DNA from: an uncultured Mesonia sp. | GTDB taxonomy: Bacteria; Bacteroidota; Bacteroidia; Flavobacteriales; Flavobacteriaceae | Reading direction: 5' to 3' | Length of the DNA stretch: 64,000 nt | NCBI GenBank assembly: GCA_958296185.1 | Contig: CATQIB010000007.1 | Location: forward strand, 195,156-259,155 | Shown: piece after piece, positions 12,602-39,123 of the stretch | Layout: every line of letters begins with the position of its first letter | Numbering within the stretch: the first letter of the stretch is position 1 | Program-made: the position numbers and the translations under genes | Notes under the pieces: generated by a model | Database searches by the model: none | What the model was told of the DNA's origin: nothing | The model's input: only the letters and a program-made list of their open reading frames with translations

Positions 12602-12613
12602 AGTGCAATAATC

Positions 12614-18636: not shown

Positions 18637-18679
18637 CAAAGCCGTCGCACCAACGTCTTATAGAACAGAAAGCAGAAGT

Positions 18680-19563: not shown

Positions 19564-19655
19564 CGTCAAGAAGCGATGCTAATAAGCTCAACTTCGTATA
19601 AAGCCCCTTCTTATTTTACATTTTAAGCCACAAAAAAGCTAATTGTTTTTTTGAC

Positions 19656-19688
19656 TTACCATTCATCGAAACTTATTTACCATCCATC
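19656..19688 (+). promoter_or_regulatory. Candidate LytTR-type direct repeat
   Basis: TTACCATTCATC (19656-19667) and TTACCATCCATC (19677-19688), start-to-start 21 bp, upstream of the response-regulator/H-NOX genes. Confidence 0.4.
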
Positions 19689-19752
19689 TAATTTATTGTG
19701 CGTACCTGCATTTTATTGTTGACCTTTACCTCAAAATGCTATAAATACACGC

Positions 19753-20167
19753 ATGAAAAAGACCTTAAGTATTTTATTAATTGAGGACGATATGATTGAA
19801 GTGATGAAAATGCAGCGCATCATTACCAAGTCAAATTTACCCCATAAAATTATCGAAGCTAAAAACGGCCAAGAGGCGCTTGACTATCTTCGAGGTGATA
19901 ACAGTCCTACCCGATATCATTTTTTTAGATCTCAATATGCCGCATATGAATGGAATTGAATTTTTAAAGATTTTAAAAGAGGACGAGTTCATTCGCTATC
20001 TACCTGTTGTTATTTTAACCACCTCGGCCAACCAACGCGATATACTAGCTTGTTACCAAAATGGCATTGCTGGCTATATAATAAAACCGCTTAAATACGA
20101 AGATTATGTTAGTAAAATTGAGGCGGTTTTGAATTATTGGAGCGTTAATGAATTAATCAAAGGTTAA
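19753..20167 (+). pseudogene. Single-domain (receiver-only) response regulator, frameshifted as given
   Basis: ORFs 19753-19959 and 19880-20167 join if one C of 19906-19907 is removed: QEALDYLRGDNSLPDIIFLDLNMPHMNG...; receiver residues EDD, LDLNMP, LTTSA, IKPL. Confidence 0.85.
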
Positions 20168-20170
20168 AAT

Positions 20171-20728
20171 ATGAAGGGAATAGTTTTCACGGAATTTCTA
20201 AATATGGTAGAAGAAGAATTCGGTTTAGCCGTCATTGACGAGATGATAGAAAAAGCCGAATTGCCTTCTGGCGGAAGCTATACCACTGTAGGCACCTATG
20301 ACTTTTTTGAAATGCAACAATTATTGCATGAATTGAACCGTATTTCTGGTATTCCTGTACAGGAATTAATTTACCAATACGGATTGTATTTTTTTAACTG
20401 CCTTACGCGGCAACATCCCAATATATTTAATTACTACCAATCTGCTATGGCTTTTGTTGCTGGCGTAGAAAACCATATTCACGTAGAAGTGAGAAAACTA
20501 TATCCAAAAGCAGAGCTACCCAGTTTTAAAGTAATCGAGCAATCGGATGATTGTTTACAATTAATTTACACTTCAGAACGGGCTATGTATATGTTTGCAC
20601 AAGCACTAATGGAAAAAACTTTTGCTTTTTATCGTCAAAAGGTATACATTTATCGAGAACTTTTAAATCCTAAAGGGACTCGCGTACAGTTTACCATAAA
20701 AAGCCATGCCAAACCGCACCAAAGTTGA
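20171..20728 (+). CDS. H-NOX (HNOB) heme nitric-oxide/oxygen-binding sensor protein
   Basis: MKGIVFTEFLNMVEEEFG; GGSYTTVGTYD; likely proximal His in VENHIHVEVRKLYPKAELPSF; Y-x-S-x-R motif YTSER. Confidence 0.9.
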   Translation: MKGIVFTEFLNMVEEEFGLAVIDEMIEKAELPSGGSYTTVGTYDFFEMQQLLHELNRISGIPVQELIYQYGLYFFNCLTRQHPNIFNYYQSAMAFVAGVENHIHVEVRKLYPKAELPSFKVIEQSDDCLQLIYTSERAMYMFAQALMEKTFAFYRQKVYIYRELLNPKGTRVQFTIKSHAKPHQS

Positions 20729-23099
20729 AATATTAGAACGAGCCCTTGCCCGTGAAAAAAAAGCACGAAAAAAGGCTGAAACAATTTTAGAAGAAAAATC
20801 TACTGAGCTTTTTTTACTCTCTGAGCAATTAGCCGAATCTAACAAAAAACTTAGTGCTGCCGTTCAAGAAAAAACCAGCCGATTAAAAGGAGTTTTTGAT
20901 ACCATCATAGACCCTTTTGTAATTATCGACTTACAAGGAATTGTGGTTGATATGAATCAAGCCGCCGTTGATTTGTTTGGTTTTGATCACCTGGAAAAGC
21001 GCGTCAATTTAATGGATTTGGTTTTACCTGAATATAAGGAGTATACCAGCCTAGCATTTCGAAAACTTTATGAGAAAGGCTCTTTCTCAAACTATAATGT
21101 AAAGATAACCACCTTTCATCAAGAAGAAAAAATTGTACAAGTAAACGCTAGTCTTATTTATGATGCACAAGGTAAACCAACCTTAGCACAAGGAATTGCT
21201 AGAGATGTTACTGCCGAAACAGAATTGAGACGCTTGCTTCAAGAGCAAAAAAAAGCAGCTCGATATCATCATGGATAACTCCCCTGTTGGCATCAGTTTA
21301 TCGACTTCAAATTTTGACGGTTTAATTCTGGCCAACAAAACCCTAACTCACCTATTAGGCTATACCCAAGAAGAAATTAGTAAAGTTAATCCGTATGATT
21401 TAACCCATCCCGATGATCGGGAGTGGTCTTTAGATTACCTTAAGCGCTTAAAGAAAGGTGAAATCAACCAGTACGCTATTGAAAAGCGCTATATCAAAAA
21501 AAACGGCGATATCATTTGGGCAAAAACTTCGGCAAAAGCAGTTGAAGACAATAAAAGTAAGATTAAATATCAAGTAGCCACCGTTGAAGATATTACAAAA
21601 GAAAAAGAAATTTTTCAAAAATTACAAGATTCACAAAAGCCGTCTTTCGAGCTTAATAGTTAACCTTCAAACCGGAGTATTGCTAGAAGACGAGCATAGC
21701 AAAATTGTTTTGACCAACGAGCGCTTTTGCAAGATGTTTAAAATAGACGCTACACCACGTGATTTAGAAGGTTTACCTTGCGAATCTTTGGTCAAATCGC
21801 ATAAAGATCTTTTTGTATATCCAGAAAAATTTGTTGAACGTATTGCTTTACTTATTGAAAACAAGAACCGTATTTTAAACGAGGAGTTGCTACTAAAAGA
21901 CGGCCGAATATTTAAGCGAGATTTTATACCCATTTACCAAGATAATAAATACAAAGGGCACCTTTGGAGTTATACCGATATCACCCTAAAAAGAAAATAT
22001 AAGACTAACCTAAAAAAACAAAAAGAAAAATACAGTAGTATTATCGCCAATATGAATTTGGGCTTGGTAGAAACCGACTTAGAAGACAAAATAATTTATA
22101 CCAATAATAGTTTTTGTAAGATGAGTGCCTATGCTAAAAACGAACTGATGGGAAAAGAAGTTCCAGAGTTTCTGCTCACTCCAAAATCAGCCAAGCAATA
22201 TGCGCTGCAAAAGAAAAAATTAAAAACCAACAAGCAGACTCTTTTGAAATAAGTGTTTACAGCAAAGATGATAAATTAAAATATTGGTTGGTTAGCAGCG
22301 CTCCCAATTATAATGTTAATGGCAAACTCGTGGGTCATATCGGTATTTACCTCGACATTACACAGCTTAAAAAATTAGAGAAACAAAAAGAGCAACTGTT
22401 AGCAAGCCTTGAAAAACAAAACGAACACCTCAACGAGTATGCCCATATTGTTTCACACGACTTAAAATCACCCTTGCGTAATATCTCTGCCCTATTAAGT
22501 TGGACCAAAGAAGATTTTGAAACCAATTAGGAGAAGAATCACTCGTAAACCTAGATTTAATACAATCTAAGGTTGAAAAAATGGATCATTTAATTGAGAA
22601 TATATTAAAATACTCCAGTATAGAGAGCGATATTCTTTTTGAAGAAAATGTAGCTATAGCTGATTTAATTCAAAATATCAAAGAGCTCATTTACATACCC
22701 GAGCATATCAACCTGCTAATAGAAGGAGAAATGCCAGTGATTAAAGCCGATAAAACCCGCATGCAACAAGTGTTTCAAAACCTTTTAAGCAACGCCGTAA
22801 ATTATATCGATAAAAGAAGAAGGCTTTATTCGTGTTTCGTGTAGCCAGAACAAAACCCATTATCAATTTGCCATTACCGATAACGGCATTGGCATAGCCC
22901 CAGAACACCACCAAAAGATCTTTAAAATTTTAATTCTCTGGGCAATCACGAAAAATCAACCGGTATTGGCTTGAGTATTGTAAAAAAAATTATTGATTTA
23001 TACCAAGGTAAAATTTGGTTAACCAGCGAACCCGGTAAGGGAACTACATTTTACTTTACCTTAAAAAAAAGCGCTCAAATTAGGGCGTTGAATAAATAA
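20706..23099 (+). pseudogene. Multi-PAS sensor histidine kinase broken by six single-base indels as given
   Basis: ORFs 20706-21278, 21271-21663, 21584-22252, 22288-22530, 22581-22844 and an unlisted tail form one PASx3-HisKA-HATPase protein: [42 protein letters not shown]. Three insertions and three deletions; composite length 2394 = 3x798. Confidence 0.85.
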
Positions 23100-23131
23100 A
23101 ATATACTAAATTGTAAATTACGAAATAGTTT

Positions 23132-23455
23132 ATGCAAGAAGAACCGAACCTGAGCTATATCGAAAAATTAGCCGATGGCGATCAAGCATTTAAAAACCGC
23201 CTGCTAGCGATTATTAAAGAAGAGTTACCACAAGAAGTAGCAAGCTTTAAAGAAAACTTATCGCAAAGAAAACTTGCATTGGCCGCCGATGGGGTGCATA
23301 AGCTCAAACATAAAATTAGTATCTTAGGGCTCGAATCGAGCTATGCTAAGGCCGAGCAATTTGAAGAAGAGCTCCGCCAAGAAAATATAGTGGGTTTAGC
23401 CCAATTTGAGATAACCCTAAGTACAATGCAAACCTTTATTGATAAGTGTTTATGA
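23132..23455 (+). CDS. Hpt (histidine phosphotransfer) domain protein
   Basis: About 107 aa helical protein with HKLKHKISILGLESSYAKAEQFEEELR, similar to the Hpt HxLKG-type helix. Confidence 0.75.
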   Translation: MQEEPNLSYIEKLADGDQAFKNRLLAIIKEELPQEVASFKENLSQRKLALAADGVHKLKHKISILGLESSYAKAEQFEEELRQENIVGLAQFEITLSTMQTFIDKCL

Positions 23456-24167
23456 GCCAAATGGACTGTATTATTATAGATGATGAAAGTACTGCGAGGA
23501 GTATTATGGAGCACCTTGTGCTTCAGAATGAAAAACTAAAGCTCGTCGATCAATTTAGCGATGCTATTCAAGCTATTAAATTTTTAAATCAAAGCAGTGT
23601 TAGCCTCATTTTTTTAGATATTCATATGCCCAGCTTTAGCGGATTTGATTTTATACAGACCCTTAAAAACCCACCTAAAATAATATTAACTACCTCAGAT
23701 AAAAATTTTGCTATTGAGGCGTTTGAGTACGATTGTATTGTAGATTACTTGGTGAAGCCCATTAGCCAGTCGCGCTTTAATAAGGCGGTAGAAAAAGCTC
23801 ACAAATTAAATCGTAAACCCAGTGAAAAAAATACTAGTCAAAATGATCAAAATCAGATCAATGAGCTATATATCAACATAGACGGCGTTTAATAAAGTTA
23901 AACCTAAATAATATTTATCTCATCGAAGCGCGCGGTGATTATATTTTAATCAAAACCGAAGAAAAAAACTATACCGTACACTCTACTTTAAAAAAGATCG
24001 AAGAAAAACTTCCAGCAGACCTCTTCTTAAAAATTCATCGCTCTTATATAATCAACACAAAGATGATTATAGATATTGAGGATAATAGTGTGTTAATCAA
24101 AAAAGACGTGGTACCGGTAAGTAGGTCGAAACGCCAAGAATTAATGAAGCGTCTAAATTTGCTGTAA
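23452..24167 (+). pseudogene. LytTR-family response regulator (REC-LytTR), frameshifted as given
   Basis: REC part CIIIDDEST, FLDIHMPSFSGFD, YLVKPIS. Adding one base near 23886 restores INIDGRLIKLNLNNIYLIEARGDYILIKTEEKNYTVHSTLKKIEEKLPADLFLKIHRSYIINTKMI. Length 716 = 3n+2. Confidence 0.87.
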
Positions 24168-24287: not shown

Positions 24288-26741
24288 ATGAGAGGCACTT
24301 TATTTCTTTATTTAATTTTGTGGAGTTTTGGCACCACAGCACAAAACTACAACTACCTAGGAAATTACACCAGCAACGGTACACCCCTATACCTAGAACC
24401 GTTTAATGATGTTATTACTCCTAGTACCTTTGATATGCTCGCGGCAATAGTACCCGAAGGCTTTCCTGTACCCGACTACAACCCGCATTATATTTCGGCA
24501 GGATATGATACCGATATAATCTTAGATCAAGCAGCCGATGTTTGGGTTACTTTTGTACAAGAAGGTGCGGGTTATAAAAACGTACTGGGATTTTATACTT
24601 ATGATATTCAGAATCCGCCTAGCTCTGCACCAACTGCAGCAGATATCACCATTATTTACCCCAATGTTTCGGCTATAGGATCTGGCGGTGGATTGCAAGC
24701 TGGGAATAAAGTGAAAATTGGAAGTTTTCCCGCTCAAACGGGCATTGGATGGGTGCTTATCGCCAACGGCTGGAATAGCAGCCAATCAAGCGTGGGCAAC
24801 GGTGCCTGGAAGGTTTATTCCAATCCAAATTTTAATCCAGAGGCCAATCCTGATTTACGCCATCATAATGTATTGATAAAAGATGAGGATAACCAAAGAA
24901 TCATCTTAGGATTTGAAGATGTGCGACGCGACTATGCTTCATGTGACAACGATTTTAATGATGCCTTATTTTATGTAACGGCCAATCCCTATGCTGCGCT
25001 TAAAACCAGTAATTATGCCGATGTAAGTAGTGCAAGCGATGTGAGTTCAGCCAATCTAGGCGGTCTGGAGAGCCACGGCGGTTTAGCACGCTTAATTGCA
25101 AAACGTAATTTCAAAAGGCAGCAAACCAATTCTTTTGCCCATAAAAAACATATGCAAACCCAGTATAGTCGCAAAACAACCCAAAGCCAAACCAATGCAA
25201 ATCCTTTTGAACATGTAGGTAGTTTGCTGCCTCAAACAGGCATGATGGGAACTGAACATGCCTTAACCTCTACTCCAACAGATCTTTTAGATATTACCAA
25301 TGCCGTAGACGTAGCTGCCGTAGATTATTATCAAGGTAGTAATAGGGTAGCTGCCGCCCTAGTAACTAAAACTTTAGATAGCGTATACAGCCATTCTAAG
25401 ATGATTTGCGACCGCTTAAATGGTTCACGTCTTGAAGATATACGCAGCATTCGCTTTCAAGGTCACCAACTCATAATGCTTCAAATAAAACGGTCAAATA
25501 ATCAAATTGAATATGCTGTTTTATTTTCCATAGCGCGCGAAATTCAAAATCAATATAAACTACACAGTTACTGGAATATTAGCGATTATCCCATTAACAA
25601 AGACTATTTAAACTTTCAGGTATGGGGTACACAAATGGGACAAGTGAGTCATATTACCCAAAGCATCTTAAATGTTTTTTTATCTAGCAATCTAACCAGT
25701 ACAACACCAATAAAACACGTACCTCGTATTTTTGTCAAGAATGCATCCTATCAAAACGGTTTAATAAATTTAACTTTAATAAATAAAAGTGGTGACACTC
25801 AATTAAATCTTAGCGCACAAAAGCGTCTTACCGAATTGAGTAACCAAAGCAATATTAATCAGCAAATTACGCTCACTGGTAATCGTGAAGAGACAATTAG
25901 CCTCAATTGGGGATACTTATTCGATGCGGGATTGTCTCTACAAACAGGTGCTAATAATATTCCCGATGCGCTGTATCTTGCCGACGGCCCATGGGGATTA
26001 GATTATCTAAACAACGATACGCAGATAAATCAATTTAACATAACCCCAGAAACTGGTGCCTTTACCACCACCCCAGGTGAATATAAACTAGAACGTCAAG
26101 TCTATGCCTCGGGCACTACCAAAGGGACAGCCAATATTTTTCGCAATATATTACCAGGCGAACAATTTTTTGACGCCCGTGGTTATAGCAATATTAACTT
26201 TAATTTAGCCTGTGACCTCCCCGTAGAAGTGATTTTGGTTACCGAAGGCTTACAACAATGGAGTGAGCGCTTACGTTACTCCTTAATTTCGCCAACAACT
26301 ACAGGACAAGATTACAGCATTGACTTAAACCAGTTTACCAATCCGCAAGGCCATAGCTACCAAGGAGAAGCCATAAAATCTGTTGTGTTCTCTCTGCAAG
26401 GAAATTACCAAACATTTCAAGCCTTTTCTGTATCAATAAAACAAATAGTCTTTAGTGATCAAGCGCTTGGAATCACAGATGATTTTGCTATAAGCAACAA
26501 GGAACGAATTAGTTGCAGTCCCAATCCATTTCAAGAGACTACCCAATTGCAATTTACCGAGAAGCCGGGTTTAACTTCAATACAAGTCTACTCTATTTCT
26601 GGTAAAAAGGTGTATGAAGGGCTACATCAAATAAACCAAAAAAATATTGAATTACAATTAAAAGATCTTAAGAGCGGTTTGTATCTCTGCAAAGTGGCTA
26701 CCCCTAAAAAAATCTTTACGCTTAAGTTGGTAGTAGAGTGA
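24288..26741 (+). CDS. Secreted DUF4114-domain protein with T9SS type A C-terminal sorting domain
   Basis: Signal peptide; DUF4114-like FEDVRRDYASCDNDFNDALFYV; C-terminus NPFQETTQLQF...IQVYSISGKKVYEG...LKSGLYLCKVAT. Confidence 0.8.
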   Translation: MRGTLFLYLILWSFGTTAQNYNYLGNYTSNGTPLYLEPFNDVITPSTFDMLAAIVPEGFPVPDYNPHYISAGYDTDIILDQAADVWVTFVQEGAGYKNVLGFYTYDIQNPPSSAPTAADITIIYPNVSAIGSGGGLQAGNKVKIGSFPAQTGIGWVLIANGWNSSQSSVGNGAWKVYSNPNFNPEANPDLRHHNVLIKDEDNQRIILGFEDVRRDYASCDNDFNDALFYVTANPYAALKTSNYADVSSASDVSSANLGGLESHGGLARLIAKRNFKRQQTNSFAHKKHMQTQYSRKTTQSQTNANPFEHVGSLLPQTGMMGTEHALTSTPTDLLDITNAVDVAAVDYYQGSNRVAAALVTKTLDSVYSHSKMICDRLNGSRLEDIRSIRFQGHQLIMLQIKRSNNQIEYAVLFSIAREIQNQYKLHSYWNISDYPINKDYLNFQVWGTQMGQVSHITQSILNVFLSSNLTSTTPIKHVPRIFVKNASYQNGLINLTLINKSGDTQLNLSAQKRLTELSNQSNINQQITLTGNREETISLNWGYLFDAGLSLQTGANNIPDALYLADGPWGLDYLNNDTQINQFNITPETGAFTTTPGEYKLERQVYASGTTKGTANIFRNILPGEQFFDARGYSNINFNLACDLPVEVILVTEGLQQWSERLRYSLISPTTTGQDYSIDLNQFTNPQGHSYQGEAIKSVVFSLQGNYQTFQAFSVSIKQIVFSDQALGITDDFAISNKERISCSPNPFQETTQLQFTEKPGLTSIQVYSISGKKVYEGLHQINQKNIELQLKDLKSGLYLCKVATPKKIFTLKLVVE

Positions 26742-26832: not shown

Positions 26833-28941
26833 TTATTTTTGGCTGCTAAAAATAGGTTTTGAGGTGATTGACCAATGCAAGCGTAAGCCCAACTGAGAAA
26901 AGGTAAATCCCGCAGCCGTTGCCGATGCTATATTACTGTGCAATCCGTAAAGGTTTAGTAAGAAACGATTGCTAAACTTATAACCCAACTTAGCTTGAAT
27001 ACGATAAGTACCTTGGCTTTTTTGATCTTCAATAAACTGGTAACCTAATGCGGTATTCAAGCTATAAAAAACAGATTGCGCTGGCTGGGACTGTTCATCT
27101 TGCAACCAATCGGCGAAAATTTCAACAGCGTTAAAACGCAACGGACTAAAGTAAGCTTCTGGTCTTCTTTTATCAAAGCTTAAATATTGGTAATTAAGCC
27201 CTAGCTTTACCACTGGGCGATACATAATATGATAGTAGAACGATGTAAACAGCAAGTGCCGATGATTTTCATCGCTCTGCTTAGTATAGAAATACTGTGT
27301 AAACCAGCCCCAATTTTTTAGCGCATTAAAGTTATAATTGCCATAAAGATGATTAGCAGCTATATTCCGTTTTAACAAATCGGCATTAAAATCTTGTATT
27401 TCTCGTTTAAAGCCAAGCTGAAAATGGTGTCTGGTTTGCGGCTTATAATCAAAATATCCATGCAAAGTCCATTGATTTTGATGCCGATTATTACTTGATG
27501 TCTTTTGTATACCACCCAGTAAGTAAGATTTAAGCTTAGGCGAAAAACGATGCTGTATCCCTCCCATAAAATGCTGTGTACTTGCCGATATATCTGTGTT
27601 ATTATTTTTGGTCTTTCTATAAGAGTAACCAGTCAATACACGAGTTTTAAAAGAAAGCGGAGCTTGAATTTGTGTATGAGAAGCCCAAGCCAAATTATCG
27701 CCATTATCTTTTGTAAGCTCGATTTTCTGTTGAAGGCTGGGCGTATTTTTAATCAATATCTTCTTATTTAATGCCGTCGCATCCTTTTGCCCTGGAAACA
27801 ATTTCAAGGTCTGCTGGGTAAGCTTCTGACTCCATTCATGTTGCTGATTGGCAAAATAAGCGTTTGCCAAGCCCAAATTACCATCAAAAGAAACACTATT
27901 TTTGACAAGCAGGTCTTTATAGAGGCTAATGCTTTGCTCAAATTGCCCCGTATACATACCTAAGGTAGCTTCTAAAGCCACCACCCATTCTTCTTTTCCA
28001 TATTTTAGCTTTAATTTTGATATTTGTTGTTTGGCTGCTTTGAATTTTCTATTCCATAATAAGGCTTGTACTAAGCGTTCTTCTGCTGTTTTTCGCACCC
28101 TATCATTTTGCAGTTCCATTGCTTTTTGTTGGGCTTTGCGGGCCAGATCTAAAGCTTTTTTCTGTTTATGAATTTTGTGCCAGGCAAGTGCCAATCCTTG
28201 CCAAGATAAGATTCTATTAACAGGCTTATCGGATTTTAGCAAACGATTATAAGTGGCAATAGCCGCCCTCGGTATATCTTGATCTAAATACACTTGAGCT
28301 AGATTGAGTAAACTCTCAGCATCTAAGGGAAAGTCTTCCAAATTTTGCTCTAATAAAACAATGGCTTCTGCATGACGCTCTGCTTTCAAATGTTGGTAGG
28401 CATGCCCCAACCGAATGTATTTTAATGAGGTTAACGCATTTGTATTTTGGGGATCAACAACTAAAGCCTTAGCAATCATTTCTTGAGCTTCCTCATAAGC
28501 CATAAGGTTGGAATAGGTATTTGCCAAACCTAAAAGAGCATTAAAGTTTTGCGGGTAAGCCTCTACTAGTTTAGTATAAAATCTTTTGGCTTTAGCGTAA
28601 TCTTTATTCCACAGTAAGGCTTCTGCATAATTCAATTGCACCTCTAAATCGTCTGGGTATTCTTGTAAAATTTCGGCAAAATAACGCAAAGCTTGATCGG
28701 GCTGCTCATTTAGACCTAGTGCTCTACCATAACAAATTCGGGCCGTTTTGTTATTAGGATATTCTTTTAAAATCTCAGCAAAAAAAGATTCGGCTTGACC
28801 GTATTTACCCGTTTCGAGAAGTTGAAAACCCGGCTCCATATATTGAGCGGTTGCTGTGGTAAGCCAGATAAAAAATAAGCAGGAAATTTTAATTTTTAAG
28901 CTTTTAAATGCCATTAAAGGTGTTTTGGTTAAAGTTAGCAA
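26833..28941 (-). CDS. TPR protein with C-terminal outer-membrane beta-barrel (YaiO/PgaA/BcsC-like)
   Basis: Repeated TPR motifs, then an aromatic-rich alternating beta-barrel pattern including YFSPLRFNAVEIFADW. Confidence 0.75.
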   Translation of the reverse strand: MLTLTKTPLMAFKSLKIKISCLFFIWLTTATAQYMEPGFQLLETGKYGQAESFFAEILKEYPNNKTARICYGRALGLNEQPDQALRYFAEILQEYPDDLEVQLNYAEALLWNKDYAKAKRFYTKLVEAYPQNFNALLGLANTYSNLMAYEEAQEMIAKALVVDPQNTNALTSLKYIRLGHAYQHLKAERHAEAIVLLEQNLEDFPLDAESLLNLAQVYLDQDIPRAAIATYNRLLKSDKPVNRILSWQGLALAWHKIHKQKKALDLARKAQQKAMELQNDRVRKTAEERLVQALLWNRKFKAAKQQISKLKLKYGKEEWVVALEATLGMYTGQFEQSISLYKDLLVKNSVSFDGNLGLANAYFANQQHEWSQKLTQQTLKLFPGQKDATALNKKILIKNTPSLQQKIELTKDNGDNLAWASHTQIQAPLSFKTRVLTGYSYRKTKNNNTDISASTQHFMGGIQHRFSPKLKSYLLGGIQKTSSNNRHQNQWTLHGYFDYKPQTRHHFQLGFKREIQDFNADLLKRNIAANHLYGNYNFNALKNWGWFTQYFYTKQSDENHRHLLFTSFYYHIMYRPVVKLGLNYQYLSFDKRRPEAYFSPLRFNAVEIFADWLQDEQSQPAQSVFYSLNTALGYQFIEDQKSQGTYRIQAKLGYKFSNRFLLNLYGLHSNIASATAAGFTFSQLGLRLHWSITSKPIFSSQK

Positions 28942-29057
28942 TTTACGCTGAGTTCTATTAATTTCATCTACAGAAAACCTCCATTAAACGAATTTAAACC
29001 CGGATTGCCTAAATAAGCTTGATCTTTGAAGCAACAAAACCATTAAAACCTAAGAAT

Positions 29058-29339
29058 ATGGCATTTTTAATTAGTTCACAAAACGGAGAATTATTATTAC
29101 AGGGCAATCTAAATGTTGACCAAGTGCACCAAATAAGACCACATTTAATCAATTTTAAAAAAGAAAGGCAACTGATAATTAATTTAAGTGCCTTAGATAG
29201 TTTAGATACCGGTAGTGTTTTTGAATTAAAACATCTAAGTCTTTGGGTACGCAAATATCAAAAAATGCTCACTTTCACAGGAGAAAGCAATCAGAAAATA
29301 AAAGGTGCTTTTAAGCGCAGTGGTATTGCATTATTTTAA
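29058..29339 (+). CDS. STAS-domain protein (anti-sigma-factor-antagonist-like)
   Basis: LLLQGNLNVDQVHQIRPHL...QLIINLSALDSLDTGSVFELKHL; ATG at 29058 inside ORF 29019-29339. Confidence 0.6.
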   Translation: MAFLISSQNGELLLQGNLNVDQVHQIRPHLINFKKERQLIINLSALDSLDTGSVFELKHLSLWVRKYQKMLTFTGESNQKIKGAFKRSGIALF

Positions 29340-29368: not shown

Positions 29369-30655
29369 ATGCAAATACAACTATCTGTAAAAAAAATAAG
29401 ACTTAAATCCGCCCAGTGGTTTATGCTAAGTGCTTTATTCGTTAATGCTGGTAATTACTTGTATAACTTAATATTAGGTCGGCTTTTGGGTCCAAGTCAA
29501 TTCGCCGATGCTGCCTTGCTCATTACTTTTTTAATGCTGCTTTCTTTTATAGCCATGACCTTTCAATTGAGTTTGGCTAAATTTACGGCCGCCGCAGAAG
29601 ATCACGAGGTGCCGCTACTTTGGCATTTCATTAGAAAGTATGCTTTATGGACTGGGATAATTATAGGTATTCTCATTCTTTTATGGGCACCGCAATTTCA
29701 ATCTTGGTTTAACACCCAAAGCCTTTGGATGTTTTACTTGCTCGGTTTGGGGGTGCCGCTTTATTTCTTAATGAGCGTTAATCGCGGTTACTACCAAGGG
29801 AGAACAGACTTTTTAAAACTATCGGCCACCTATCAAACCGAAATGCTAAGTAGACTTATTTTAAGTGTTCTGCTTGTTTTAATTTGGCGAGAAAATACGG
29901 CAATTTTGGTAGCAATCGGTATATTATTATCCTTAGGGTTTGCTTTGGTTCCCTTCCCTCGACTACCTAAAATCAACCAAGCTTTAACTTACAGCTTAGC
30001 ACCAGAGAAAAAAAAAGCAATTCGTTTATTTGTAGGGATCACCGCTTTTTATGAACTCTCCCAAATCATTATAAACAACAGTGATATCCTATTGGCAAAA
30101 CATTATTTTAAAGCCTACGAGGCAGGGTTATACGCCTCGATGGCCTTAATAGGGCGTATGGTTTATTTTGTTGCTTGGATGCTGGTTATGGTTTTATTAC
30201 CCCGTGTAGTGCAGTTGGAAAAACAACAAGTAAACAGCCTACCGCTTTTTTTAAAGTATTTAGCAGGCATAAGCTTATTGGTTTTTTGTATTGTTTTGGG
30301 AGCCTATTTTTTTCCAAATACATTAGTACAGCTATTATTTGGTGAAGCTTACACGAGTATTGCTCCCCTTTTATGGAAATACGCGTTGGCCACAGCGTTA
30401 TTCACCCTTGCCAACGTTTTTGTATATTACTTTTTATCTTTAGGCCAATATCTTCCTGTCTTGTTATCGGCTCTATTAGGATTGGCTCAGGTGGGTAGTT
30501 TAATTTTCTTTCATCACAGTTTAGAACAAGTGGTAGAGGTACAAATAATTTGCATGGCACTTTTATGTTTAATGCAAGTATTGCTTTTCTTTTATCTGAA
30601 AAATAGAAATATTGGTCTAAGCAAATGCCCCATTCATCGAAGAATAAAAGAGTGA
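29369..30655 (+). CDS. Polysaccharide flippase/transporter (Wzx/PST family)
   Basis: 12-14 hydrophobic segments; NYLYNLILGRLLGPSQFADAALLITFL; NRGYYQGRTDF. Confidence 0.85.
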   Translation: MQIQLSVKKIRLKSAQWFMLSALFVNAGNYLYNLILGRLLGPSQFADAALLITFLMLLSFIAMTFQLSLAKFTAAAEDHEVPLLWHFIRKYALWTGIIIGILILLWAPQFQSWFNTQSLWMFYLLGLGVPLYFLMSVNRGYYQGRTDFLKLSATYQTEMLSRLILSVLLVLIWRENTAILVAIGILLSLGFALVPFPRLPKINQALTYSLAPEKKKAIRLFVGITAFYELSQIIINNSDILLAKHYFKAYEAGLYASMALIGRMVYFVAWMLVMVLLPRVVQLEKQQVNSLPLFLKYLAGISLLVFCIVLGAYFFPNTLVQLLFGEAYTSIAPLLWKYALATALFTLANVFVYYFLSLGQYLPVLLSALLGLAQVGSLIFFHHSLEQVVEVQIICMALLCLMQVLLFFYLKNRNIGLSKCPIHRRIKE

Positions 30656-30700: not shown

Positions 30701-31900
30701 ATGAAACTAGCTCTTGTCACAGCATTCCCGCCTAGCAAAGTAACCCTAAATGAGTACGGCTATCACTTGGCCAAAAATTTTGCTAAGCAAGAAGAAATTG
30801 ACGAATTGGTACTGCTAACCGATTATACTGAAGAAGCCAAAAACATAGACTTTTCGACAGCACATTGTCAAGTAAAAACCAAAGATTGTTGGAAATTTAA
30901 TAGTTATAAAAATCTCTTTAATATTTATAAAGCCATTCAAAAAGAAAAACCCGATGTGGTTTTATTCAATTTGCAATTTATGAAATTTGGCGATAAAAAA
31001 GTGGCAGCTGCATTGGGCTTACTGCTTCCTATGCTTTGCCGTTTGAACGGAATACCAAATATGGTTTTACTACATAATATTTTAGAGCAAGTAGATTTAA
31101 AGAGCGCTGGTTTTACGCAAAATAAATTGGTACAACGCGGTTACAACCTTATAGGATATGGTCTCACCAAATTAATACTTCAAGCTAACTTAGTTGCAGT
31201 AACCATCCGCAAGTATGTTAGTATTTTAAATCAAAAATACAAAGCTAAAAATGTAATGCTGATTCCGCACGGTAGTTTTGAGCGTTTACCCTTACCCAAC
31301 TTTGAAATACCCGATGGGGCTCAAAAAATCATGTGCTTCGGAAAGTTTGGTACCTACAAAAAAGTGGAAATTTTAATCGAAGCCGTAGAGCAATTGCGCA
31401 ATAGCCAAGGACTTAACCTAGAAATTGTCATTGCAGGTACCGATAGCCCTAACACCCCAGGATACCTTGATCAAGTTAAAGAAAAATACAAGAACATCAA
31501 ACAAATTAGTTTTACTGGATATGTTGCAGAAGCCGATGTACCTCGGATCTTCGAAGAAAGTACTATGGTAGTATTTCCTTATACTTCAACCACAGGAAGT
31601 TCTGGTGTTTTACATCAAGCTGGTAGTTATGGAAAAGCAGTAGTACTACCCGATTTAGGTGACTTAGGTATTTTGGTTAGAGAAGAAGGTTACCAAGGTG
31701 AGTTTTTCGATCCGCAGTCGGTTGACTCATTAGCAAATGCCATATACAAGATTGCGCGTAATGCAGAATACCGCAAAGCATTAGCCCTAGCCAATTACCA
31801 AGCCGCGGCCTCTTTGCCGATGGATGTAATAGCTCAAAAATATGTGCAAGCCTTTAAACAAATAATCCCACAAAAAGCAGAACAGGTTTTAATAGGTTAA
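30701..31900 (+). CDS. Glycosyltransferase family 4 (GT-B)
   Basis: IMCFGKFGTYKKVEILIEAVEQL, EIVIAGTDSPNTPGY, FPYTSTTGSSGVLHQAGSYGKAVVLPD. Confidence 0.88.
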   Translation: MKLALVTAFPPSKVTLNEYGYHLAKNFAKQEEIDELVLLTDYTEEAKNIDFSTAHCQVKTKDCWKFNSYKNLFNIYKAIQKEKPDVVLFNLQFMKFGDKKVAAALGLLLPMLCRLNGIPNMVLLHNILEQVDLKSAGFTQNKLVQRGYNLIGYGLTKLILQANLVAVTIRKYVSILNQKYKAKNVMLIPHGSFERLPLPNFEIPDGAQKIMCFGKFGTYKKVEILIEAVEQLRNSQGLNLEIVIAGTDSPNTPGYLDQVKEKYKNIKQISFTGYVAEADVPRIFEESTMVVFPYTSTTGSSGVLHQAGSYGKAVVLPDLGDLGILVREEGYQGEFFDPQSVDSLANAIYKIARNAEYRKALALANYQAAASLPMDVIAQKYVQAFKQIIPQKAEQVLIG

Positions 31901-33439
31901 ATAAGTTGCTGCGGGTTTAGGTTTACCTTGGGTGGTAAAAAAACCAAAGTGTTTTTGGTACGCTTTACGCCAAGGCCACCTGCCTACAACAGATCGAGGT
32001 ATAGCATCAAAATCATAAAGTGTCCAAGCCATAAAGGATAGATCATTTTGAAGAATAAAATCATGCATCTTTCGATGATAATCAGCTTGCGCTTTTTTTC
32101 CTCCTTGCCAAAAATTAAACCAACCCGAGTAAGAAGACATACCAAATTCCTGCAGGACTAATGGCTTATCAATTAGGTTATTAAGCATCTTATAATCTGC
32201 CGCCAATTGCGCAAATGGTTTATAGTAATGAAAAGAGACAAAATCAACTTCTTGCTCTAAATAAATTGCAGCTTCGGGCTTAGACCAACCCACGGTAATC
32301 AAATGATTGGGTGCAAAAGTACGCATTTGGGCAATAGTTGTTTTGAGCCATCCTTTGACATTATTTGCACCGCGCGACTCAAAATCTAAATCGGGTTCAT
32401 TCTTAACATCCCAAGCCAATATGGCCGGATGATCTTTAAATCGAGTAAGCAAGCTTTCGGCGTGCCTATGGGTGTGAGTCCAATCTAAAACGGCATAATT
32501 TCCATAAAAATCAAACAAGGTAACCACCACGAAAAGCTGTTTCTGTTTTGCAAGATTTAAAACCTTTTCAAGTTTATCCAGTTTTTCAGGCCTAACCTGT
32601 TCTTTACCAAAATCTTCGTAAGGCACAAAGATACGAATGGTATTTAGCCCTAAACCCTTTATCTTACCAAAATCAATAGCCATTTGCTTTAAATCAAATT
32701 GATCGCCGTACATATCCCAAGGAGTCTTTTGGGGGTAGTAATTGATACCTTTAAGAAAGAAAGCTTGGTCTTGATAATACAACTTTTTATTTTTTACTTG
32801 AAAAACGCCACTTCCTTTTTCTTGTTTGGGTTTCGTAGTGTCAGGCAAACGCTTCATATGCCTTATTCTCCAAAAACCATCTTCTAACATCATCATTACT
32901 TGGTAAGTACTGGAGTCTTCTAAAATTGCCAATAAATTCTTGCCTTTAAAAACTTGTTGGTATTCACTAACTGCTTGATCTGTAAAAACCAATAGCTGTC
33001 CGTTTTCACTAAAAAATTCTACTCTAGGTTGATGCGATAGACTGGTCGAAACCAAGTGGATCTGTTTTTTTTTGTTTTCACGGATAATTTTACGCAATTT
33101 CACACGTGCACTATCGGTAAAATAATCGGCTATTCCCTCTTCCTCATTGCTCTGTAATGCCCTTTGTTTAACATACCAAGCTTTTAAATAATCATCTTCA
33201 ATCGCTCGTATTGCTTCAGGATGTAAAGACCTTCCTTTCACCGCGGTATAATCCCAAGTGATTTTAGGTTGATAGGGTCTATTTCGTAATTGTTCGGCCT
33301 TTAACAAACCGCTTCGATCGGCTCCGGTATTTAAAAAAGCTAAAACGGTGCTAATCCCATAAAGCACTAGTGCATTTAAAATTAAAAAGCTAACAATAAG
33401 CAGAATTCGGTAAAATGTTTTATTAAGTTTCTTACTCAT
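31889..33439 (-). CDS. Membrane-anchored GH-A clan glycoside hydrolase (GH5/GH2-like)
   Basis: N-terminal TM; FFLKGINYYP; ILAWDVKNEPD (acid/base Glu); PLVLQEFGMSS (nucleophile Glu). Confidence 0.8.
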   Translation of the reverse strand: MSKKLNKTFYRILLIVSFLILNALVLYGISTVLAFLNTGADRSGLLKAEQLRNRPYQPKITWDYTAVKGRSLHPEAIRAIEDDYLKAWYVKQRALQSNEEEGIADYFTDSARVKLRKIIRENKKKQIHLVSTSLSHQPRVEFFSENGQLLVFTDQAVSEYQQVFKGKNLLAILEDSSTYQVMMMLEDGFWRIRHMKRLPDTTKPKQEKGSGVFQVKNKKLYYQDQAFFLKGINYYPQKTPWDMYGDQFDLKQMAIDFGKIKGLGLNTIRIFVPYEDFGKEQVRPEKLDKLEKVLNLAKQKQLFVVVTLFDFYGNYAVLDWTHTHRHAESLLTRFKDHPAILAWDVKNEPDLDFESRGANNVKGWLKTTIAQMRTFAPNHLITVGWSKPEAAIYLEQEVDFVSFHYYKPFAQLAADYKMLNNLIDKPLVLQEFGMSSYSGWFNFWQGGKKAQADYHRKMHDFILQNDLSFMAWTLYDFDAIPRSVVGRWPWRKAYQKHFGFFTTQGKPKPAATYLTY

Positions 33440-34658
33440 AGTTTTTAATTTTTAAGGTTTTAATGGCACCTAGTGTTTTAAGCTCTAGAGCGTATTCCTT
33501 AAGCGGATACAAATTGGCTGGAAATTTCACATTCACCATTGCATTGCGCGTGGTAGCCATACTTTCGAAAACCACTTCAGCTGCATTCATCAAACGTATT
33601 GACACACGAGTACCTTCAGGCACCTTTTGCCCCATATACCCTAGAATGGGACCTACTTTTAACGATCTTTGAGCAGCATTATAAATTACAGGAATTTCGC
33701 TCACAGCCGATTTAAAATAGACCTGAACCGGGTTGCTTTTGGCCAAATTGGCTACTTGCGCTTGTACAGTCCATGTTTGAGGCTCTTCTGGATGAATTGC
33801 CTTTGCCCGAGCCACACCATTAAGCGTACTCGCATAAATCTTGGTGTATTCATCCAACCTATTTTTAATTTCAAAACTTACCAAAGTACCGTCTGAGACT
33901 GTATTGCCATAGACATCTTTTAAAACCGAAGTATACCACTCTATTACTTGATTCCCATCCGCGAAAGCGTGTGTCTGGTTATAAGCAATTTCAAAGTCAA
34001 CCGGCGAAGCAGCATAAATTTGACTAAACAGCTCGTTACTAGTGGTTTCTTGGCATGCGGCCACCCAATTGATCTGGCCCGTTTGCGTAGGTGGAACTAT
34101 TGTCTTGAAAGCCAATAATGACGAGGTAAAAAGTGTGTCTGTAATGATCTGTTCTTTAAAATTATACGTTACTACCACAGGGGTTAAGTTTGGGAGTGGA
34201 TTATCATATGCGTCTGTAGGTATCGCTATCAACATACTTTTTTGTGCGCTACCCGCCTCTAGATTTTTTGGCCCCAAATAGGTCTCTAGTTGTATCGGTT
34301 GATCGAGAGAAGGAATGATATTTAAGCTTCCACTCTCAAGTAATTTATTTTCTGTATGCAATTGGTAGCGCAGGCTACCCGCAGTTTTTTTAATAAAATT
34401 AGGAAAAGAAAAGTATACCTTTGAAGCCTTGCGTTGAGACGGAGTTATTACCGTGGTGCCCCAAGTGTTTTTAAGGACTAAAAAAACGCTATCTTTCGTG
34501 CCTACCTCCAAAATTAAATCGGCTGCTGGTTGAGATGTATTTTTATGGATTTCTATACCCTCAGCAGCAGGAGATGTACAAGCACCAAACAAAAGCCATA
34601 GCATTAACCCGTAGAAGAAAAGAAAGCCATTATGAAAATACAGTTTGGTTTTCATCAT
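33432..34658 (-). CDS. Lipoprotein with Ig-like domains
   Basis: LLFGACTSPAAEG lipobox; invasin/bacterial Ig-like DAYDNPLPNLTPVVVTY and DVYGNTVSDGTLVSF; overlaps neighbours on both sides. Confidence 0.7.
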   Translation of the reverse strand: MMKTKLYFHNGFLFFYGLMLWLLFGACTSPAAEGIEIHKNTSQPAADLILEVGTKDSVFLVLKNTWGTTVITPSQRKASKVYFSFPNFIKKTAGSLRYQLHTENKLLESGSLNIIPSLDQPIQLETYLGPKNLEAGSAQKSMLIAIPTDAYDNPLPNLTPVVVTYNFKEQIITDTLFTSSLLAFKTIVPPTQTGQINWVAACQETTSNELFSQIYAASPVDFEIAYNQTHAFADGNQVIEWYTSVLKDVYGNTVSDGTLVSFEIKNRLDEYTKIYASTLNGVARAKAIHPEEPQTWTVQAQVANLAKSNPVQVYFKSAVSEIPVIYNAAQRSLKVGPILGYMGQKVPEGTRVSIRLMNAAEVVFESMATTRNAMVNVKFPANLYPLKEYALELKTLGAIKTLKIKNYE

Positions 34659-37600
34659 TTTAAATTACCTATAAAACTGTTAAGCTGTATGCTAAAGTAA
34701 TTAAAATTTTTGTCCTTCACTGGCTGCAGGTTCATAGTTAAACCAGAAGATTTTAATGCATTGAAAGAATGCGAATTACTTTTATTTTGCAACCCGTTTA
34801 CAAAACAGTTATCAGTTGAAGATTGAACTACTTGTATATCATTTAGAGCGGAGAAGGTATAGTTAAAATCTAATTTTCGTTGAACTCTTATACCGTCTTC
34901 TAAAAATTTATGTTCTACCCAAATGAGCTCTTTATTTTTATTGTAGTACCCCATTATAATTTGCGGAATGGTAATTTCTTTTGTCCCATGATTAAACAAA
35001 CGCCCGTGTACCGAACCGCCTTGCACTCTACTGCTGGCTAACGATAAACCTTTATACAAATCTGTCGTAGCCACATTGCTACCGCAATGTAAGCTAAAAC
35101 TAACGGGAGTTTCTTTTAAATCGATTGGGGTGAACTCATCTGGATTAAAAGTTTCGGGAATTGATTCATCGGGTAGCAACCAGGCAATGCCCTCAAAATC
35201 TATACGAAACATCGTACTTTCTTTGGGCAATAATTTATGCTTTACCGCATACTTAGCATTGTAGCTGGCAATAACTTCATTACGTTCATTATATAATTTA
35301 CCTTTTAGCACCACATCTGCAGGTATATGATCTTTATTTTGTAGGGTACCAATGATCGCATATTGGTTGTTATGACGAACAAGTTTCGCGGTTAAAATTT
35401 TAATCCTTGGTTGCTCTAAAACATCTTCATGGTAAGTTTGTTGCGTGGTGATCCGGCGCCGACCGTGATTGTAAAAATGAGTAGTATTTTGACTGAAAAA
35501 TTGATTAGGTGGTAAATCATTATCAAGTTTCTTGGGTTCTAAGTACCATTTCCCGTTTGATTTGACCAATTGATGCAGGTAAGTTTTTTTAATATTTTGT
35601 AAGGGAGTAACATATTTAAGATGCGCTAAAACTTCTGCATTTTTATCTGTCTTTTTTATAACTTCAACCTCAATGGCTTCTACTTTTGCATACGAACTAA
35701 GCACCCCATCGGTAACTGAAACTTCAAGCATAAATTGATTTATATCCTGAGCATTTTCTGGATTTAAAAAAGCATGTGCTTTCTCAAAAGCTTTAAAATC
35801 GAGTGCATCGTAATAAGCGGTTACTACATTTTTTGGAGATAATTGATCTGTATTTTGCACATAAAACAAATAACCCGCATACGAAATTACAATGCACATA
35901 AATACCAGCCAGTAATGCAGGATAGTCGAAATTTTTGATTCAAAATTACGGTATAAAATAGGATATTTAAGAAAATCTGGTGTACTTGTTTTTTTTAATT
36001 TTAAGGTTTGATACCAAACTACTTGAAAATTAAATATAAAAGCCACTAGTACTGTAAGTAATGGGATTACCCCCCACATTAATCGAAGCCAGAGGGCGGT
36101 AGTTGGTCTCGGTAAAATTTTTGAGAGCGGGGCTACATTTAGCCTTTCCCAAACCATTATACCATTTTCTAATCTTTGTAAACGCTGCCAACCAGAAAAA
36201 TACAACAGGGGATCATAAAATTTATCATTAGAAAAAATATACTTGAGGTTATATTTATCGGGAACCGTTAAAAATTGTTGTAAGGATCCAAGCCCCTCTA
36301 TGCCTCGAAACTTCGAGTTCTCTAAACGTTCCACTGCTCGGGTAGTCAATTCGGGCAGACGTCTAGCGGAGTGATAATTACCATCTACTGAAAGCGCATT
36401 GGTTTGAGCCGAAAGCCAAGCCATCTGATCACCAAAACCCAAAGTTAGGTATCGCCATTGATCATGCTGGTCTTGATTTAGAAAGTTTACAATTGGTAGC
36501 ATGTTAATTTTCTGTGGCTGCATAGGCCTAAAATAACTTAAAGTAATGGTAAAGATGGCAAAAAATGAAATCCCAGCAACGAGTATTCCGCCCAGTAAAC
36601 GATGTAAAACCGCACCATATTTTCGTTGAATTTTCTGTTTTAAATCGGTCTCGATAAAACGGTAAGCAAATTCGCCTAAAATGGGTAAGCCCATTAAAGC
36701 AGCCCAAAGGGTAAAACGGTCTAATGTAAGTATATTGAAAGCTGTTTCGCCTAAGAGCAACTTTGGAATAGGCGTGGTACCTCCGGTTCCTAATAAACCT
36801 AAGGCGGCAAACGAAAGACCGAAAAACAAATAACGCTTGGCAAAGAAGCGATAAAAAAGATAGGGCATTAAGAACAATGCAATTCCCCAAGGAATAAGAA
36901 AAAAAACCAAACCCGAAGAGCTTACCTCTAAAAAGTTATCGCGACTACCATGGGGTATGGCCACTTGGGTAATGGGATTCTGCTTGGTGTTTATCCAATA
37001 AGGTAAAATACAAACGATAATAAGGACTAATGCACTTAAACCAAAAATTAAAATCCTTTTAAAAAGATTTAAAAAAGACTGCCAAAAAAGGTCAAAACGA
37101 ATGTTCTTATATGAGCCAGCTCTATCATAAGCCTTATCCATTACTGCCATCCCCAATAAAGGAAATATAAAAAATACCATCCCAAAAATTGGAGTAACAT
37201 GATGAGAACTCACCGTTACGGCAACAAGAGAAAGAGCACGCCACAGGTATTTGTATTTACCTTGCTTTACCCACAGGTAAATTTCGGGCAAAGCATGCAT
37301 CAATAATGAAACCCCTACAATGCTTGGCAACTGCCCAAAAATGTGTAAGGTCTCTATAAAAGTAGAAGAAAACACCCCTATAAGTGCAGCATAACCAGCT
37401 ACTTTTCTGTTACCAGTAAGCAGTAATGAAAACCGATATACTCCTGTAATGAATAACACCACTGCACACAAGGCTACTGCAAACAATCCAAAATGAAGTC
37501 CACCTAGCCAAGAAAACAAAGCCATTACTTGATGTACCAAAGGCGGATAACCCATAACCGTAAAGCCGGTATACCACTTATAATTCCAAGCGTCGAACCA

Positions 37601-37741
37601 ATTATTAGCATAGTGTTCGGCAAAAAATAAATGGATTAAAGCGTCATATGTATTTTCTAAGGTGAAGAACATACTAGCGCCATGAAAAAGTAAACCTAGC
37701 ACTAGTGCCGCAATCAGATATTTATTGGTTTTTTCTTTCAA
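34655..37741 (-). CDS. Large polytopic membrane protein, GT-C / 6-pyruvoyl-tetrahydropterin-synthase-related type, with soluble C-terminal domain
   Basis: Many TM segments; first-loop TYDALIHLFFAEHYANNWFDAWNYKWYTGFTVMGYPP; soluble C-terminal region. Confidence 0.65.
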   Translation of the reverse strand: MKEKTNKYLIAALVLGLLFHGASMFFTLENTYDALIHLFFAEHYANNWFDAWNYKWYTGFTVMGYPPLVHQVMALFSWLGGLHFGLFAVALCAVVLFITGVYRFSLLLTGNRKVAGYAALIGVFSSTFIETLHIFGQLPSIVGVSLLMHALPEIYLWVKQGKYKYLWRALSLVAVTVSSHHVTPIFGMVFFIFPLLGMAVMDKAYDRAGSYKNIRFDLFWQSFLNLFKRILIFGLSALVLIIVCILPYWINTKQNPITQVAIPHGSRDNFLEVSSSGLVFFLIPWGIALFLMPYLFYRFFAKRYLFFGLSFAALGLLGTGGTTPIPKLLLGETAFNILTLDRFTLWAALMGLPILGEFAYRFIETDLKQKIQRKYGAVLHRLLGGILVAGISFFAIFTITLSYFRPMQPQKINMLPIVNFLNQDQHDQWRYLTLGFGDQMAWLSAQTNALSVDGNYHSARRLPELTTRAVERLENSKFRGIEGLGSLQQFLTVPDKYNLKYIFSNDKFYDPLLYFSGWQRLQRLENGIMVWERLNVAPLSKILPRPTTALWLRLMWGVIPLLTVLVAFIFNFQVVWYQTLKLKKTSTPDFLKYPILYRNFESKISTILHYWLVFMCIVISYAGYLFYVQNTDQLSPKNVVTAYYDALDFKAFEKAHAFLNPENAQDINQFMLEVSVTDGVLSSYAKVEAIEVEVIKKTDKNAEVLAHLKYVTPLQNIKKTYLHQLVKSNGKWYLEPKKLDNDLPPNQFFSQNTTHFYNHGRRRITTQQTYHEDVLEQPRIKILTAKLVRHNNQYAIIGTLQNKDHIPADVVLKGKLYNERNEVIASYNAKYAVKHKLLPKESTMFRIDFEGIAWLLPDESIPETFNPDEFTPIDLKETPVSFSLHCGSNVATTDLYKGLSLASSRVQGGSVHGRLFNHGTKEITIPQIIMGYYNKNKELIWVEHKFLEDGIRVQRKLDFNYTFSALNDIQVVQSSTDNCFVNGLQNKSNSHSFNALKSSGLTMNLQPVKDKNFNYFSIQLNSFIGNLK

Positions 37742-37815: not shown

Positions 37816-37825
37816 ACCGTTCATC
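37816..37825 (+). promoter_or_regulatory. Candidate LytTR box ACCGTTCATC
   Basis: First 9 nt match the published LytTR consensus [TA][AC][CA]GTTN[AG][TG]; lies in the divergent intergenic region. Confidence 0.4.
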
Positions 37826-37878
37826 TACACAAAACGACTAAGCAGCCATTTTATGGGAATCTAATAAAGCATTGAACT

Positions 37879-37932: not shown

Positions 37933-39123
37933 ATGAAAATACTGGCCATCGATGATCAACAACTCGTATTGTTACCTTTAGAAAAAAGATTAATCAGCCT
38001 CGACTATGAAGTTAAAATAATCGCTGATGCTCAACAAGCAAAAAGTGCCTATGATACCTACCAACCAGATTTGGTAATTGTAGATATCAATATGCCAAAA
38101 GTATCGGGCATTGAAATTATCAAGTACATTCGTCAAGAAAAAAAACACGATACGCCTATAATGGTATTATCTGGCAACACCCAGAACGAACTTATTGTAG
38201 AGGCCTTTGAATTAGGGGTTGAAGATTATATGAAAAAGCCTTTAAGTTTAGACGAGGTGTGTGCCAGAGTTAAAAGACTTATTGGGGGCCGTAGTTTATA
38301 TGGGATAAGCAATTACACTAAGACATTGATCGAAAAGCGCTGCGTAGGTGTAGTGATTCCTTGTTATAACGAAGAAGTGCGCCTATTGAGCGAAGACTTT
38401 TTGAGCTTTGTAGACACGCACACGGGTTATCATCTCTGTTTTGTTAATGATGGAAGCACTGATCAAACTTTGTCGGTTTTAGAAAATTTACGAAAAGGAC
38501 GCGAAGACTATATAAGTATATATGACTGCCAGAAAAATGGAGGAAAAGCCGAAGCAGTAAGATTGGGCATGCTGCATTTAGCAAAATTTGATGATTTAGA
38601 TTATATCGGTTTTTTAGATGCAGACTTATCAACAGACTTACAAGATTTTGATGATTTGGTAAAAACAATAGAAACCAATACCTACCAAATTGTGAGCGGT
38701 TCTCGCATAAGCAGAATGGGAGCAAATATCAATAAAGACTCTGCCAGGAAGTTAATTAGTAAAAGTATCAATTACAGTATTTGCAAAATTCTTAATATGA
38801 ATTTTAAAGATACACAGTGCGGGGCTAAAATAATGGATAAAGAAATAATAAATATTGCTTTTAACCAACCCTTTTATACTCGTTGGTTGTTTGATGTAGA
38901 AATATTTTTGAGAATCCGTCAACATTTTGGTCTAGAAAAGGCTCGGCAAATTATATGCGAACAGCCTTTAAAACGCTGGGTTCATGCTGATGGCTCAAAA
39001 TTATCTTATAAAGATTCGCTTAAAATTATAGGGCAAATTGGTAAAATAGGCTGGTTATATTCACGGCAAAAAGACCCATCTAAATTTTCTTACCTCAAGC
39101 CACACGTTAAGATCAAAGCCTAG
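37933..39123 (+). CDS. Response-regulator receiver domain fused to a GT2 (DPM1-like) glycosyltransferase
   Basis: REC: AIDDQQ, LVIVDINMPKVSG, MVLSGN, YMKKPLS. GT2: VGVVIPCYNEE, FVNDGSTDQT, NGGKAEAVRLGM, GFLDADLSTDL, VSGSRI, QCGAKIM. Confidence 0.92.
   Translation: MKILAIDDQQLVLLPLEKRLISLDYEVKIIADAQQAKSAYDTYQPDLVIVDINMPKVSGIEIIKYIRQEKKHDTPIMVLSGNTQNELIVEAFELGVEDYMKKPLSLDEVCARVKRLIGGRSLYGISNYTKTLIEKRCVGVVIPCYNEEVRLLSEDFLSFVDTHTGYHLCFVNDGSTDQTLSVLENLRKGREDYISIYDCQKNGGKAEAVRLGMLHLAKFDDLDYIGFLDADLSTDLQDFDDLVKTIETNTYQIVSGSRISRMGANINKDSARKLISKSINYSICKILNMNFKDTQCGAKIMDKEIINIAFNQPFYTRWLFDVEIFLRIRQHFGLEKARQIICEQPLKRWVHADGSKLSYKDSLKIIGQIGKIGWLYSRQKDPSKFSYLKPHVKIKA

Follow-up and report, generated by a model that had tools for sequence, protein, structure and literature searches.

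A receiver–GT2 glycosyltransferase fusion in a conserved island of H-NOX phosphorelay and polysaccharide genes in Flavobacteriaceae

A receiver domain fused to a GT2 glycosyltransferase

The window, the whole 64,000-nucleotide stretch from an uncultured Mesonia sp. analysed here, contains an intact ORF (37933..39123, + strand) that runs in a single frame from an ATG start with zero internal stops and encodes a 396-aa protein, referred to here as REC-GT2. Residues 3-113 (37939..38271, +) match Response_reg (PF00072) with an E value of 5e-25 and a score of 88.2 bits, against a curated Pfam cut-off of 30.2. A linker (residues ~114-136) connects this receiver to a polyprenyl-phosphate-type GT2 domain (residues 138-380), the core of which (residues 140-304; 38350..38844, +) matches Glycos_transf_2 (PF00535, E 2e-19). 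The receiver catalytic set is complete, comprising D7, D8, D51 (in VDINMP), S80 (in LSG) and K102 (in KKP), and these five residues are nearly invariant in an alignment of 34 sequences. Alignment also located both GT2 motifs, FVNDGS and GFLDADLS, the latter containing the DXD.

In the AlphaFold model of REC-GT2 (mean pLDDT 72.6), the N-terminal part matches receivers and the GT2 part matches GtrB, ArnC and dolichyl-phosphate mannose (DPM) synthase, the same group that was retrieved by a profile search of PDB sequences. At the level of the predicted fold the GT2 domain is DPM1-like, and its acceptor would be polyprenyl phosphate. No hydrophobic or transmembrane (TM) segment was detected in REC-GT2 (peak 19-residue Kyte-Doolittle mean of 1.01), nor, in the same scan, a C-terminal TM anchor of the ArnC/GtrB kind. 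Some DPM1 proteins have no such anchor either, so its absence weakens membership of the ArnC/GtrB subgroup only. The first-pass annotation, made from the sequence alone, had described a single intact fusion of a phosphorylatable-looking receiver with a DPM1-like GT2 domain lacking a C-terminal TM region, and the domain, alignment and fold results bear this description out; the receiver residues it listed are moreover conserved in relatives.

The neighbouring polysaccharide genes

Divergently oriented to REC-GT2 is the gene for a 1028-aa multi-TM protein (34655..37741, -), a probable GT-C glycosyltransferase. Its match to PTPS_related is weak and below threshold, a sequence search of the PDB with it found nothing, and Foldseek returned low-confidence matches to STT3, PglB, ArnT and DPY19 from a poor model (mean pLDDT 59.5). 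Beyond it lie genes for an Ig-like exported protein (33432..34658, -; Big_1-like, below the cut-off), which is a conserved cluster member, and a GH5/cellulase-like protein with an N-terminal TM anchor (31889..33439, -), followed by a GT4 glycosyltransferase (30701..31900, +) and a polysaccharide flippase (Polysacc_synt_3; 29369..30655, +). The remaining genes encode a small protein with weak STAS/MlaB-type similarity (E 0.003; 29019..29339, +), a TPR protein with weak similarity to PgaA-type export porins, probably an outer-membrane exporter (26833..28941, -), and a DUF4114 protein with a Por secretion tail, a usual member of the island (24288..26741, +). A GT-C-like gene stands beside REC-GT2 in 76 of 80 named loci, several of the remaining ones being short contigs, and the GH5, Ig-like, GT4 and flippase genes keep the same order in most of the 80.

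Homologues of the GT2 domain that lack the receiver adjoin PMT-type GT-C genes elsewhere. Together with the predicted GT2 fold class and the GT-C-like matches of the neighbour, this suggests that the GT2 domain and the 1028-aa protein form a donor-synthase/GT-C pair resembling ArnC/ArnT. The combination of flippase, GT4 and TPR/outer-membrane proteins prompted a comparison with Pel-type clusters, which was rejected: no PelF- or PelG-specific or other Pel-specific family was matched, the flippase and GT4 proteins match general families only, and there are no diguanylate cyclases. Positions 9191-15856 of the window hold separate capsule/EPS genes (nucleotide-sugar dehydrogenase-like, Wzc-like and export-protein-like, as judged from ORF sequence only).

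The phosphorelay genes

Upstream of the polysaccharide genes, all on the + strand, are genes for a stand-alone receiver, RECa, taken as the phosphorelay intermediate (19753..20164, one frameshift near 19900), an intact H-NOX (HNOB) haem NO-sensor (20171..20728), a PAS histidine kinase (20706..23072, about six frameshifts), an intact Hpt phosphotransfer protein with the motif VHKLKHKI (23132..23455) and a REC-LytTR response regulator (23461..24167, one frameshift near 23883). The H-NOX gene adjoins the histidine kinase gene and is accompanied by Hpt and receiver genes, an arrangement that identifies an H-NOX/histidine kinase phosphorelay, with the kinase, RECa and LytTR genes frameshifted in this window. 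These genes had earlier been proposed as an adjacent source of candidate phosphodonors; they do belong to the same linked, conserved island, but they lie 14-18 kb upstream of REC-GT2 (19753-24167), with polysaccharide genes in between.

A LytTR-type promoter motif

A LytTR-type site, ACCGTTCATCTA (37816..37827, +), was found in the divergent GT-C/REC-GT2 promoter region, and two more, 21 bp apart (19658-19669 and 19679-19690, +), upstream of the relay operon. A weight matrix built solely from GT-C/REC-GT2 intergenic regions then matched other island promoters, namely those upstream of RECa, DUF4114, the outer-membrane protein/flippase genes and GT4, against a null expectation of 0.16 matches per 20 kb. 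Same-strand pairs of sites 10-60 bp apart were spaced at exactly 21 bp in 37 cases and at 22 bp in one, with zero pairs at other spacings. The 12-bp core occurs exactly three times in the 2.73-Mb genome, always in the island (window positions 19658, 19679 and 37816), and a reversed control pattern occurs five times; as the pattern was designed around these three sites, the count speaks to specificity and not to presence.

The motif tracks the LytTR gene. The gene is in the island in 37 of 40 genomes, all 37 of which have intergenic sites, and the three islands without it (G040, G203 and G257) have none; in these three genomes, a LytTR orthologue and the motif are both found at a new locus elsewhere. 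In another 20 relay stretches, each of which includes LytTR, at least one site was present in 18, the stretch fetched being short. This co-movement, and a resemblance to AlgR-type LytTR sites (similar core, CCRTTCRTC), make the LytTR regulator the putative binder of the motif. A second locus with RECa-like and LytTR genes and the same LytTR-type sites was observed in L282, L283 and L284, the first two of which also carry flippase or GT4 paralogues. The first-pass annotation had envisaged control of sugar transfer that bypasses transcription. As stated, this does not hold: with LytTR-type sites ahead of both the relay and REC-GT2, control of the enzyme would be transcriptional as well as post-translational.

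Conservation of the island

In 20 genomes examined, the order RECa-HNOB-HK-(FIST-HK2)-HPT-LytTR-DUF4114-OM protein-flippase-GT4-GH5-Ig-GT-C-REC-GT2 recurs with small variations. The island starts with the stand-alone receiver, H-NOX and PAS kinase genes, often followed by FIST (NosP-like) and second kinase genes, then Hpt; REC-LytTR is in the island in 18 of the 20. Among 75 genomes with the GT-C gene, Hpt was found in 74 and H-NOX in 69, in 57 of which it lies at most 40 kb away (median 17 kb), and the GT-C gene is present in 59 of the 62 REC-GT2 genomes. Fisher co-occurrence tests take no account of phylogeny and their P values therefore exaggerate independence; physical linkage is the stronger point. 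The comparative analysis makes the linkage between relay and REC-GT2 much stronger than a reading of one sequence could.

A receiver-less GT2 stands at the same place in 16 of 75 islands, so phospho-control is not obligatory, and the LytTR gene is kept in all 16 GT2-only genomes. The idea that receiver and LytTR are mutually exclusive was discarded, most islands carrying both; that no examined island is without both is only suggestive.

Distribution and origin of REC-GT2

The full REC-GT2 architecture was found in 62 of 300 Flavobacteriaceae genomes and in all 80 named loci retained. Sixteen further genomes of the 300 contain a close GT2 homologue without the receiver, located, in those examined, at the same position in the same cluster. 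The named matches are almost all from marine Flavobacteriaceae (Zunongwangia, Winogradskyella, Algibacter, Lacinutrix, Tenacibaculum, Polaribacter, Kordia, Lutibacter, Formosa and others). A spread across the phylum was not borne out: in a sample of 297 genomes, full-length matches came only from Flavobacteriaceae and one genome of another family. An isolated copy of the REC-GT2 cluster in the non-flavobacterial Portibacter lacus (L141) is nested among flavobacterial sequences and reflects either transfer or mislabelled or contaminating DNA. A single well-supported branch of the tree separates all REC-GT2 sequences from the rest. This is compatible with a single origin of the fusion, long branches making the details of the tree unsure. 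A chance or artefactual fusion is ruled out by the intact copies in many genera and a tree compatible with one origin.

Where the cluster is found, the GT2 catalytic motifs are kept; in genomes without it they have decayed. The DXD is lost and the receiver kept in three genomes without the cluster GT-C gene (G142, G146 and G106) and in a divergent copy in G008 with no cluster beside it. From this pattern of motif decay away from the cluster, GT2 catalysis appears to be tied to the polysaccharide cluster.

Several variants were observed among the loci. REC-GT2 proteins with decayed GT2 motifs and largely kept receiver residues occur in L028, L082, L083 and L101:6926-7876. Directly downstream of REC-GT2, 47 of the 80 named loci encode a degenerate GT2-like protein that is short (often 150-169 aa) and has no DXD (as at L064:8047-8550 and L068:8832-9314), possibly a regulatory subunit or a remnant. 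In a number of loci, mostly of Algibacter (L064:9779-10150, L065:10309-10680, L125, L126, L128, L131, L162 and L178), a gene just upstream of REC-GT2 encodes a stand-alone receiver that shares 51-61% identity with the REC-GT2 receiver. Clusters in L098 (G278) and L101 (G104) have both a receiver-less GT2 and REC-GT2, or two REC-GT2 copies.

A proposed role for REC-GT2 and its alternatives

The domains, the conserved receiver and GT2 residues, the fold class, the synteny, the co-occurrence, a promoter motif that tracks the LytTR gene and the absence of diguanylate cyclases are all observed, and on this basis we consider that REC-GT2 is probably a polyprenyl-phosphate-sugar synthase set by phosphorylation, a non-transcriptional output of the nitric-oxide phosphorelay that controls the polysaccharide. 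In such a scheme, the H-NOX sensor (with a FIST/NosP-like sensor in most relatives) would signal to the PAS histidine kinase, from which phosphate would pass through the stand-alone receiver to Hpt. Hpt would then serve two terminal receivers, that of the LytTR regulator acting on island promoters and that of REC-GT2, whose phosphorylation would set enzyme activity. The adjacent GT-C-like membrane protein would then use the lipid-linked sugar made by REC-GT2, adding it to an exported polysaccharide. We infer the phosphotransfer route, the effect of phosphorylation on glycosyltransfer and its sign, the donor sugar, the polysaccharide and that nitric oxide is the effective signal.

In the organism analysed here, the relay may have decayed, leaving REC-GT2 as an unregulated or differently regulated leftover. 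We regard this as rather doubtful, and it is compatible with the proposed role in relatives. About eight frameshifts are spread over the RECa, kinase and LytTR genes (19.8-23.9 kb), while the polysaccharide ORFs are intact. However, H-NOX and Hpt are also intact, all three LytTR sites survive, and the tblastn pieces of the relay genes show frame changes and no sequence loss, those of the kinase retaining its motifs and 55-69% identity to G004, in which the relay genes are intact. A stretch of local assembly errors would look identical, and the frameshifts fit both recent decay and such errors. They are bunched at window positions 19300-23900, possibly reaching the 3' end of an ABC gene (18620-19432) as well, among neighbouring long ORFs that are intact.

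Set against the proposed phosphorelay output is also the question of the phosphodonor, since the receiver could obtain its phosphate from other kinases or from acetyl phosphate. If another kinase of the cell did so, the island relay would act on the cluster solely through LytTR, and proximity would reflect shared transcription. The relay and LytTR, and in most cases the motif, accompany the whole island, including islands with a receiver-less GT2, and the divergent REC-GT2 of G008 has PAS-type kinase and receiver genes of its own next to it; both observations favour this explanation. We nevertheless judge it improbable in view of two rearrangements. In G002, from the same genus, the sensor locus lacks RECa and the sole close relay-Hpt homologue; both genes are instead found immediately after REC-GT2, in the same orientation and ahead of a second LytTR gene. 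In G040, G203 and G257, which may represent a single event, LytTR and its sites have left the island, whereas the sensor, kinase, RECa and Hpt genes stay with REC-GT2 and the polysaccharide genes; no output receiver other than REC-GT2 is seen there. As these genomes have a LytTR orthologue elsewhere, REC-GT2 is not necessarily the sole output receiver of the cell.

A direct transfer of sugar to the growing polymer or another acceptor, with no polyprenyl-phosphate sugar, would suit a protein without TM segments, unlike ArnC and GtrB, and fold alone cannot reveal activity. This is very improbable, given that polyprenyl-phosphate transferases are the top matches in both profile and fold searches and that GT-C-type partners adjoin both REC-GT2 and its receiver-less homologues. 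We give least credence to the receiver being a constitutive docking or dimerisation module with catalysis not gated by phosphorylation: receivers can act in dimerisation or docking, and some Algibacter loci encode upstream a stand-alone receiver ~60% identical to that of REC-GT2, but D51 and K102 are unnecessary for docking alone and the phosphorylation residues are retained even in most copies with a decayed GT2.

No GGDEF domain was found in this genome or in 299 of the 300 family genomes, leaving a single genome that encodes one. REC-GT2, set in a fixed island alongside an NO sensor, an Hpt protein and a LytTR regulator, offers a compact and testable account of how exopolysaccharide may be controlled post-translationally in Bacteroidota without c-di-GMP, in culturable marine genera. 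There is perhaps an even chance that, in flavobacteria without c-di-GMP, the NO phosphorelay ends on a glycosyltransferase, with Hpt delivering phosphate to both the island LytTR and the REC-GT2 receiver for slow and fast control of the pathway. Marine flavobacteria may thus tune slime production by phosphorylating an enzyme instead of through the usual messenger, c-di-GMP.

Comparison with known systems

The architecture is common within Flavobacteriaceae, but no paper describing it was found in the literature collection searched; the Galperin 2006 and 2010 response-regulator censuses may list it. AlgR-type LytTR regulators presumably resemble that of the island in being REC-LytTR proteins with paired direct repeats ~two helical turns apart and a similar core; the island regulator differs in being dedicated, in this genome, to the island. 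H-NOX phosphorelays of Shewanella and Vibrio likewise have H-NOX beside a histidine kinase, with outputs that affect biofilm there, and their known outputs are c-di-GMP enzymes or transcription (review PMC8738867). Since this genome has no GGDEF domain, the c-di-GMP outputs usual for the studied H-NOX relays (PMC8738867) are not available here, and a glycosyltransferase is among the candidate outputs.

ArnC of the ArnC/ArnT pair, GtrB and DPM synthase share with REC-GT2 the GT2 fold, the DXD and, presumably, the supply of a lipid-phosphate-sugar donor to a GT-C enzyme. They have no receiver, and ArnC and GtrB are TM-anchored, unlike REC-GT2. In PleD and other enzyme-output response regulators a receiver is likewise joined to an enzyme that it controls, as proposed for REC-GT2, but the output of PleD is a second-messenger synthase and not a glycosyltransferase of polysaccharide synthesis. 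If the proposed role is correct, the flavobacterial phosphorelay would end on a glycosyltransferase, and not on DNA or a second-messenger enzyme.

The closest precedent in architecture is MTH_548 of Methanobacteriaceae, described in the part of PMC5847659 consulted as a receiver fused to a BcsA-like glycosyltransferase (PF13641). According to that passage, it resembles REC-GT2 in joining one or two receivers to a glycosyltransferase and in its narrow, lineage-specific distribution, and the passage mentions no NO relay or polysaccharide cluster. MTH_548 is archaeal and its glycosyltransferase is of the PF13641 BcsA-like kind, whereas Pfam assigns REC-GT2 to the polyprenyl-phosphate-type PF00535 and finds no PF13641 domain in it. 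Receiver-glycosyltransferase fusions were therefore already known, and the flavobacterial protein is a variant with a polyprenyl-phosphate-type GT2 domain.
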